A stretch of DNA of 55,337 bases from Acidobacteriota bacterium (GTDB taxonomy: Bacteria; Acidobacteriota; Blastocatellia; Pyrinomonadales; Pyrinomonadaceae). Positions 6,845 to 9,238 of the stretch are shown here, piece after piece. Location: contig QHXI01000059.1 of NCBI GenBank assembly GCA_003222895.1, positions 1-55,337 of the forward strand. Direction: 5' to 3'. Below the pieces are notes generated by a model, which was not told where the DNA came from, did not search any database, and worked only from the letters and a program-made list of their open reading frames with translations. The translations under genes and the position numbers were made by a program. How positions within the stretch are numbered: position 1 is the first letter of the stretch; each line of letters opens with the position of its first letter.

Positions 6845-7606
6845 TTGGGTTCCGAAGACAGAAAATTTTCCGGCCGGGTGGCGATCGTTACCGGCGCGAC
6901 GCGCGGCATCGGCCGGGCCATCGCGCTGGAACTGGCGCAACGCGGCGCCGATGTGGCATTCAACTATGCCAAGAGCATGACCGCGGCGGACGAACTGAAA
7001 TCAGAAATTGAATCAATGGGAGTACGCGCCTGGGCATCGCAGGGCGACGTGGCGAATACCGACGCCGCGGCCGCGATGGTGAAGCAGGTCAAAGACTCGT
7101 TCGGTCGCATCGATTTTCTCGTCAATAACGCGGGCATAGTGCGCGACACTTTGATTCTACGCATGAAAGAATGCGATTGGGACGCGGTGATCGATACGAA
7201 TTTGAAAGGCGCCTGGAATTTCGCGAAAGCTGCGCTGCGCGTAATGCTCCGACAGGAAGAGGGCGGATCGATTCTTAACATCACGTCAATCAGCGGCGTC
7301 GTCGGGATGGCCGGGCAATCGAATTACTCAGCTTCGAAGGCCGGCATGATCGGGTTGACGAAAGCGCTGGCGCGCGAAGTTGCGAGTCGCAAAGTTACTG
7401 TGAATGCGTTGGCACTCGGCATGGTCTCGACGGATATGTCCAGCGCGCTCGATGAAACCTATCGCGCAAAGTTGCTCGAACAGATTCCGCTGGGTCGATT
7501 CGCCGAGGTTGAGGAAGTCGGACGCATTGCGTGCTTCCTGCTTTCGAACGATGCACGATACATCACAGGGCAGGTGGTTCAGGTTGATGGCGGACTGGCA
7601 ATGTAA
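6845..7606 (+). CDS. fabG: 3-oxoacyl-ACP reductase-like short-chain dehydrogenase
   Basis: NAD(P)H-dependent classical SDR, most like beta-ketoacyl-ACP reductase of fatty-acid elongation. From the chosen start it has 253 residues. The cofactor motif GATRGIGRAIA, NNAG (structural), the catalytic Ser in NITSISG and YSASKAG (Tyr-x3-Lys) are all intact. The C-terminus ITGQVVQVDGG is typical. The start is a TTG at 6845, 7 nt after a perfect AGGAG; the upstream ATG at 6776 lies before the -10 element and is rejected. The gene stands alone, away from other fab genes, so a role in another ketoacyl reduction (for example a polyhydroxyalkanoate or secondary pathway) is possible. Confidence 0.88.
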   Translation: MGSEDRKFSGRVAIVTGATRGIGRAIALELAQRGADVAFNYAKSMTAADELKSEIESMGVRAWASQGDVANTDAAAAMVKQVKDSFGRIDFLVNNAGIVRDTLILRMKECDWDAVIDTNLKGAWNFAKAALRVMLRQEEGGSILNITSISGVVGMAGQSNYSASKAGMIGLTKALAREVASRKVTVNALALGMVSTDMSSALDETYRAKLLEQIPLGRFAEVEEVGRIACFLLSNDARYITGQVVQVDGGLAM

Positions 7607-7610
7607 ATTC

Positions 7611-7671
7611 GAGTTTCAAGTCTAAGGTGAAAGTTTCAAGGTCGGTAATTTAACTTGAAACCTCAAACTTG
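7611..7671. repeat. Decayed GTTTCAAG inverted/direct repeats
   Basis: GTTTCAAG occurs at 7613-7620 and 7633-7640, and its complement CTTGAAAC at 7654-7661. The last two form an 8-bp stem with a 13-nt loop just downstream of the fabG-like stop. It looks like an eroded intergenic palindrome. It may slow 3' exonucleases, but there is no T-run. Confidence 0.4.
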
Positions 7672-7681
7672 TAACTACCCA

Positions 7682-7944
7682 GAAAAGACTCGCCCCGCCG
7701 ATCTTTTCAAATCAGCGGGGCGATTACATCAGGGTAGGTTCGGGTAAATTAGGGTTGGCTAGGCCAGACTTGAGAATCGTCGCTTACGTGCGATCCTGTA
7801 CTTCAAAGGTGGTACTTATTGAAGGCGGTATGAAGTCTACGGAGCGAAAAATAAAACTGCCGCATCAAGAACTGACGACCTTCCGTCTTTGAAGCTACTC
7901 GCCTCAGCCAGCAATACTTTCAAACACCTGATAACTTGTTTGTA
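7682..7944 (-). ncRNA. Candidate structured small RNA (6S-like rod?)
   Basis: The longest gene-free stretch of the window (7607-8035) appears to encode an RNA of about 260 nt on the minus strand. A promoter (TTGACG, 17 nt, TACTTT) lies at 7951-7979 and an intrinsic terminator at 7690-7723. Inside, complementary segments nest in order: ATCAGG near the 5' end with CCTGAT near the 3' end, then GGCTGAGG with CCTAGCC, then CTTCAAAG with CTTTGAAG. The result is a long hairpin rod. This overall shape recalls 6S RNA, but I do not recognise conserved 6S sequence. It does not resemble tmRNA or RNase P, and no plausible ORF covers it. Confidence 0.45.
7690..7723 (-). terminator. Intrinsic terminator of the candidate small RNA
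   Basis: Perfect 9-bp stem TCGCCCCGC/GCGGGGCGA plus 3 more pairs after one mismatch, with an 8-nt loop. On the minus strand it is followed by GTCTTTTCT. The T-run is on the minus-strand side only, so it terminates leftward transcription. Confidence 0.55.
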
Positions 7945-7950
7945 AACTGC

Positions 7951-7979
7951 AAAGTACACCCGCGCTCGGTTTCCGTCAA
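7951..7979 (-). promoter_or_regulatory. Promoter of the candidate small RNA
   Basis: TTGACG (7974-7979) and TACTTT (7951-7956) with 17-nt spacing on the minus strand. It lies just below the end of the five-gene operon and points into a region without genes. Confidence 0.45.
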
Positions 7980-8035
7980 GGGAAAATCAGAGAAATGTGA
8001 CAAGTTTGTGACATGCGTTACGAGGTCGATGGCAC

Positions 8036-9238
8036 TCAGGTGACGGGGCCACGCATTTCCGTGAGCCGATAAGCCTGGCGGCGGACGGCTTCTGAAACAT
8101 TCCGGTTCTGCGAAATCGATTTCAGGTCATTCGTTCGGATCCGAGGCAAGACTTGCACTGCTGTGGCCATCGGCGTGCGAGGATTACGCGCAAGATTGTG
8201 AATTATCGGATAAGACCTGGCCCACGCTCGATTCATTCCGATCAATCGCAGAACCTCATCAGAGACGGTGCGCATCGCTGCGATCTTTTCGATTTCCTGA
8301 TCGGTGATTCGCGGATTGTGAATAACGCCAGTCGCAACGATCTTGTTTGTATCGCGAACCAGAATACCGCGCGCTTCGCGGTCGCCTTTCATCGCTAACT
8401 TCACGCGGTCTTTCACGGTCATGAACATGATCCGGCGAATCATCGAGATTCGTTCTGGCGAGATGTCGCCTTCCATGCTTTCGGCATTGATAACAGCTTG
8501 CATGTTAGCCGCGTGCTGCTCGGGAGTTTCGATTAACAGCTCTTCAATGAATTGTCGCTCGAGCCATGAATCGTCAATGTCGAGATCAGAAACTTCGATG
8601 TGTTGCGCAATCGCCCAAGCGTCGTCAACTGAAAAGTCGCCCTGCAATTCAGCACTTTCAAAGAACTCGGCGGCCGCCGAATTACCTCGGGCACGCAGCT
8701 CTTGGGCAACCTGGCGCGCGCCGCGTTCCTTTTCAAAAAACTCGCGGCGGATCTCTTTCACACGGCGCTCCGCGTCGGATGATCTCGCCGGGTTAGCCAG
8801 CACCGCATCGATAATTTCCGGTGAACGAATCAATCGTTGTTGGTTGAGCGTGATCAATTCGATCAAAGAAGCATCGGACGTGGTGCGCGCGAGCAACGCA
8901 ATCGCCTCGTTAGGCGTATTTGCATTTGCGGTGACGGCCGCGTAGATCCCGCGATCGGCGTTTGCGAGCGATGCGAAATGACCGAGGACGGCCGGCGCGA
9001 TGGATTCACTTCGCGCCGCTTCCAAGAGATCAGCGGACGATTGCGAACTGAGAGTCTCCTGCGCGGCACGCGCGATTGCCGGGTCGTTGTCGGCGGTCAA
9101 ATGGACGAGCGCTTCCAGCAGATCGTCTTGTGGCAGCGGTAACAAACCACGCGCGGCGGCGGAACGGGCCGCCGGCGGAGCATTCCCGGATATGATCGAT
9201 CTAACGACGGGATTGGTTGATTTAGATTCCCCGGCCAT
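8036..9238 (-). CDS. Alpha-helical repeat (HEAT-like) protein of unknown function
   Basis: About 400 residues, almost entirely helical, with no signal peptide. Repeat-like units recur, for example NPAR/NPRITDQEIEKIA and NPRTPMATAVQVLPRI followed by NRNVSEAVRRQAYRL. They resemble the HEAT-like repeat proteins common in Acidobacteria and deltaproteobacteria. The first half is Ala-rich (SNPVVRSIISGNAPPAARSAAARGLL) and also HEAT-like. ATG 9238 is chosen over the TTG one codon earlier. It is the last gene of the pepP operon, about 11 nt after the TonB-C gene. It is probably a cytoplasmic scaffold; no catalytic motif is visible. Confidence 0.75.
   Translation of the reverse strand: MAGESKSTNPVVRSIISGNAPPAARSAAARGLLPLPQDDLLEALVHLTADNDPAIARAAQETLSSQSSADLLEAARSESIAPAVLGHFASLANADRGIYAAVTANANTPNEAIALLARTTSDASLIELITLNQQRLIRSPEIIDAVLANPARSSDAERRVKEIRREFFEKERGARQVAQELRARGNSAAAEFFESAELQGDFSVDDAWAIAQHIEVSDLDIDDSWLERQFIEELLIETPEQHAANMQAVINAESMEGDISPERISMIRRIMFMTVKDRVKLAMKGDREARGILVRDTNKIVATGVIHNPRITDQEIEKIAAMRTVSDEVLRLIGMNRAWARSYPIIHNLARNPRTPMATAVQVLPRIRTNDLKSISQNRNVSEAVRRQAYRLTEMRGPVT

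Follow-up and report, generated by a model that had tools for sequence, protein, structure and literature searches.

A probable stand-alone small RNA gene of the Pyrinomonadaceae with its own promoter and terminator and conserved C-rich blocks

What occupies the space between two genes when no gene can be read there is the question raised by a gap in contig C72 of genome G000, which makes up the window (the whole stretch of DNA analysed here, 55,337 nt). A first-pass annotation described the gap as gene-free and 429 nt long, and reported within it a sigma70-like promoter, a rod of nested complementary segments and a GC stem with a T-run, which together would probably form an independent RNA, possibly a divergent 6S RNA or a new family. 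The gap indeed spans 7607-8035, exactly 429 nt, between an SDR/fabG-like gene and a weakly HEAT-like gene, and promoter, body and terminator follow in the correct order, all on its minus strand. The candidate RNA gene extends from the -35 box at 7979-7974 to a 3' end near 7682 (Table 1), and would be transcribed from its own sigma-70-type promoter and stopped at its own intrinsic-type terminator. From sequence comparison, we consider it highly probable that this soil acidobacterium has a stand-alone small RNA gene here, encoded on the minus strand.

Table 1. Features of the candidate RNA gene and its surroundings in the window.
Feature	Position	Strand	Remarks
SDR/fabG-like short-chain dehydrogenase gene	ends 7606	+	Pfam adh_short_C2
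Terminator	7682..7723	-	15-pair stem-loop 7723-7690 and T-rich tail
Predicted transcript, ~265 nt	7682..7946	-	ends deduced from the -10 (start) and the terminator (3' end)
C-rich stretch, two conserved blocks	7731..7765	-	proposed contact site
Blocks within the C-rich stretch	7759-7754; 7743-7733		GCCACC (GCCAAC in the window); CCGARCCTRCC
Internal hairpin AGGATCG...CGATTCT	7773..7797	-	two-sided changes in 5 of 7 pairs
GTACCACC segment	7805..7815	-	GCACCRCC in many relatives; moderate conservation
Variable 5' domain	7866..7946	-	candidate pairing with the GCACC segment
-10 region	7951..7958	-	TGTACT 7958-7953 aligns with TATAAT of relatives; alternative TACTTT 7956-7951
-35 box TTGACG	7974..7979	-	TTGAC in 42/42 copies (sought as such), TTGACA in 35/42
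Upstream box TGTCAC-N5-TGTCAC	7997..8013	-	direct repeat 5' of the promoter; candidate activator site
HEAT-like gene	ends 8036	-	20.7 bits, under the Pfam cut-off; weak likeness

A DNA search of 97 relatives located the element in every one of the six remaining genomes of the window's genus and in several genomes of other genera. We built a covariance model (R1) from 12 copies and used it to search 119 genomes of the family for the core of the RNA. With scores above 40 bits, 42 full-length copies were recovered from 41 genomes (about a third) and from 17 of 29 genera; L055 and L064, whose cores are identical to those of L079 and L077, respectively, were removed before counting. The next matches reached at most 27 bits, several of them being opposite-strand readings of a copy's own terminator, and the two sub-threshold matches that were examined (G113 and G053) were rejected, a second model giving them no support. 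One extra copy, in G009, is truncated where its contig stops and stands outside the 42, with its promoter and the start of its body present. G152 carries two diverged copies (L095 and L083) on different contigs, which may reflect a duplication or a mixed assembly. The other 78 of the 119 genomes, including every genome of the large genus g8, gave no match above 40 bits, indicating that the RNA either is not universal in the family or has diverged too far to be seen. A search of the class at E <=0.01 matched 44 of 162 genomes, all 44 within the family, and a sample of the phylum matched five of 396, again all within the family; as six candidates per genome were scored in that sample, it tests absence elsewhere in the phylum only weakly. 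An exact-pattern scan of viral contigs returned no match. We infer that the host family of the RNA is the Pyrinomonadaceae (Acidobacteriota).

The promoter proposed by the first-pass annotation fares differently by the two routes used to examine it. A plain consensus promoter scan found none at the locus and missed the TTGACG promoter because the -10 is poor in the window genome, where it reads TGTACT with a 15-nt spacer or TACTTT with one of 17 nt, whereas comparison across copies supports TTGAC together with a -10-like hexamer. Such a hexamer lies 15-17 nt past TTGAC in every one of the 42 copies. It is a fitted hexamer, since TTGAC was what the script looked for, the best hexamer at a spacing of 15-18 then being selected; an exact TATAAT at spacing 16 is present in 22 copies, and in the 12-copy alignment the -35 and -10 boxes share one position. 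Outside the window's genus, the common form is TTGACA-NNTCACAAAANNTCGG-TATAATTTCACACA. A stricter promoter pattern, allowing up to two mismatches in 118 family genomes, produced 53 matches against three for a backward control. Twenty of the 21 exact matches fall on copies of the RNA and the remaining one on the copy cut by the contig end in G009; five of the six one-mismatch matches likewise mark RNA copies, the sixth being a tRNA-Lys promoter, as do five of the 26 two-mismatch matches. The seven genomes of the window's genus gave no match to this pattern. This tRNA-Lys match, in G041 (L156 250-364), was rejected as a copy of the RNA; the promoter of the tRNA-Lys gene, TTGACA..TATAATTTC, is of the type found at the RNA.

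Inspection of the upstream regions of the 42 copies revealed that the box preceding the promoter resembles TGTCACAAAATTGTG in many copies other than that of the window. In the form typical of the window's genus, it has six exact matches in the seven genus genomes, five at the RNA and one elsewhere, with no match in two of the seven. Nearly private to this locus within the genus, the box at 7997-8013 is probably the site of a regulator, and a factor bound there would probably set the transcription of the RNA.

At the other end of the element, the GC stem and T-run noted in the first-pass annotation correspond to a terminator of 15 pairs, nine of them G-C, at 7723-7690, followed by GTCTTTTC; the T tail of the window copy is short and is interrupted by C. 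Just beyond it lies an imperfect inverted repeat (window 7612-7676) with arms at 7624-7640 and 7654-7670 that are 76% complementary. This sequence (query part 360-424) is a dispersed repeat unrelated to the RNA element, and similar repeats occur at five further places in G000 as well as in G017, G020, G025, G045, G055 and other genomes of the family.

Covariation was assessed in a MAFFT alignment of the 42 cores that was not fitted to structure, the copies themselves having been found with a model already holding these helices. Across the hairpin and terminator, 15 of 21 pairs show two-sided changes and 89.4% of cells are paired; on none of five measures did any of 500 shuffles, which do not preserve relatedness, come up to the real alignment, and pairing fell to 33-50% once the partner was shifted by 1-3 columns. 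Two-sided changes are found in 10 of the 14 counted pairs of the terminator, while the internal hairpin, where C-G is replaced by A-U in L098 and A-U by G-C in L106, was equalled by none of 5000 permutations in a swap test. The alignments of relatives do contain paired substitutions, whose absence the first-pass annotation had named as a refutation. Pairing of the 5' domain with the GCACC segment has weaker support (swap test p 0.005; mean z -0.64 against shuffles). Between the 5' domain and the C-rich stretch no pairing of its own was detected (swap test p 0.75), and the P3 helix, GACTT/AAGTC in the window's genus, was not significant (p 0.096). Folding that included the terminator gave a z score of -3.31, with 2 of 200 shuffles equally good, and folding without it gave -0.73 (46 of 200). 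This last value, together with a 5' domain that is poorly kept among same-genus genomes, leaves the proposed rod unsupported, and the structure supported by covariation consists of one hairpin and the terminator.

Comparison of the window with four genomes of the same genus shows that the core parts of the element (67-96% identical) are more conserved than either the downstream spacer toward the dehydrogenase gene (17-39%) or the third codon positions of fabG (51-56%). The box and promoter are 57-76% identical in the same comparison, the T tail 50-62%, and the 5' domain, which is mostly absent in one of the genomes, 16-51%. In ten related pairs, 44 of 49 gaps are not multiples of three, and among the 42 transcripts no ATG frame is closed in 10, the frames are shorter than 40 aa in 26, and frames of 44-80 aa occur in six. 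Judged by these patterns, it is most unlikely that the RNA codes for protein.

The genes around the copies bear on whether the element could instead belong to one of its neighbours. Downstream of the 42 copies stands an SDR/fabG gene in 25 cases, a glycosyltransferase gene in 14, and another gene in one, two copies lying at contig ends where none was identified, and the downstream gene is convergent to the RNA in 39 of the 40 copies in which it was identified. In the exception, G005, the next gene runs in the direction of the RNA and begins about 37 nt past the element (by the first listed start), an arrangement that would suit a leader or riboswitch; given the opposite orientation of all the others and the terminator that closes the element, we attach next to no probability to a function of that kind. 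The convergent arrangement and, in 16 of the 42 copies, a HEAT-like gene ahead of the RNA on the same strand and less than 200 nt away could also be accommodated if the element were not independent but belonged to a neighbour, either as the 3' UTR (or a processed tail) of the HEAT-like gene or as a terminator, antisense or convergent, of the downstream gene. Both neighbours vary between genera, however, while promoter and body stay, and conservation covers the body rather than the terminator alone, so that we rate this explanation as very unlikely. With neighbours exchanged around a persistent promoter and body, a leader function is disfavoured and the element is unlikely to be no more than a 3' tail. 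The element keeps its own promoter and its own terminator in relatives, as is characteristic of a stand-alone sRNA, and with the covariation and the body retained beside changing genes, the earlier proposal of an independent RNA holds up. At the level of sequence, comparison shows orthologous copies, a conserved promoter, a covarying hairpin and terminator, no sign of coding and independence of either neighbour.

The suggestion of the first-pass annotation that the RNA might be a divergent 6S RNA, which would bind RNA polymerase, has in its favour properties that the two share, both being stand-alone, with their own promoter and of broadly similar length. G000, however, has a separate 6S match at C84:74304-74489 (52.1 bits, against a gathering cut-off of 46.4 bits), and the 6S family model (RF00013) recovers nothing at the present locus, either at that cut-off or at E <=10, which leaves the 6S reading unsupported. 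Nor was a long conserved rod of the 6S type with a large central bubble found, since z is -0.73 without the terminator and covariation is restricted to hairpin and terminator; we regard this identity as scarcely credible. Three further identities, tmRNA, RNase P RNA and SRP RNA, were rejected, each being found elsewhere in G000 above cut-off. More generally, no Rfam 15 family matched anywhere in the window at the gathering cut-off. At E <=10, positions 7500-8100 gave six matches (MIR6201, mir-465, sX13, MIR781, NsiR1 and Afu_513), all far under cut-off and rejected, and six diverged copies scanned at E <=1 gave two matches, both outside the RNA, and none within it.

How the RNA might work is suggested by its C-rich blocks, which are its most conserved parts outside the helices: across the 42 copies, identity is 93-100% in nine of the 11 columns of 7743-7733 and in each of the six columns of 7759-7754. 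Their predicted unpaired probability is intermediate (0.24-0.67), and a search for a conserved partner within the RNA found none. Such conservation in the absence of an internal partner suggests a contact site. A seed search for the 13-nt complement of the C-rich stretch, with at most one mismatch in the seven genus genomes, returned 26 matches (six at the RNA itself and 20 elsewhere) against 27 for a backward-pattern control, and hence no excess. No shared target was seen among these loci, 16 of the 20 having been viewed and nine compared mutually; L176 and L182 are the only homologous pair among the nine, and their sites lie at non-corresponding places. The window's C-rich segments also paired no better with 80 presumed translation starts, taken as first-ATG starts from six sources, than with 81 coding stretches. 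With a possible contact site on one side, and neither start pairing nor a seed excess on the other, the RNA likely acts in trans, and both mRNA pairing and protein binding are possible.

Our preferred explanation, which we regard as moderately probable, is that of a stand-alone noncoding sRNA, known so far from a single Acidobacteriota family, that acts in trans via the C-rich blocks (7765-7731), which would be offered to a partner RNA or protein. The C-rich contact mechanism taken by itself we put forward tentatively, at a little less than an even chance. In a different arrangement, the motifs ACCACC, GCCACCC and CCGARCCTRCC would hold a regulatory protein, as in CsrB or 6S, without any pairing to mRNA. 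The strong conservation of the blocks with no internal partner found, and the negative outcome of the mRNA complementarity searches, are compatible with such a protein-binding RNA; there is, on the other hand, no candidate protein, the motifs are few and non-identical, and the tests for targets covered limited ground, so we view it as possible but rather unlikely. A more speculative proposal, to which we give a low probability, is a lineage-specific stable RNA of the Pyrinomonadaceae with a dedicated activator box and promoter, whose conserved C-rich surface captures a regulatory protein or a core part of the expression machinery; if true, it would in effect be a counterpart of 6S or CsrB that arose independently.

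The RNA most likely forms a new family among the stand-alone small RNAs, themselves a known kind. The other alternative raised by the first-pass annotation, that of a new family, is the one that agrees with the conserved promoter and terminator, the covariation and a body kept as neighbours change. Our literature searches found no description of this RNA, and a search by name of the text of PMC11109978 and PMC8632094 returned no acidobacterial names. Catalogued RNA families are few for Acidobacteriota, for which the table of a 2022 review gives four distinct annotated sRNAs (PMC9029176). For the present RNA, an alignment of 42 copies is available together with a promoter, probable ends and a hairpin backed by covariation, which makes its expression and partners directly testable.

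Among known systems, Acido-1 (RF01686) and Acido-Lenti-1 (RF01687) are tabulated as RNA candidates from Acidobacteria that are not cis-regulatory (table in PMC2864571), and in both respects they are like the new RNA. Neither was matched in the window at cut-off, in the gap at E <=10 or in the six diverged copies at E <=1. RsaE and similar trans-acting sRNAs of Firmicutes carry a conserved C-rich motif and have their own promoter and terminator. The RNA described here showed no enriched pairing with translation starts, and its sequence was compared with theirs only via the Rfam scans; it resembles these sRNAs in its conserved C-rich motif and in having a promoter and a terminator of its own.
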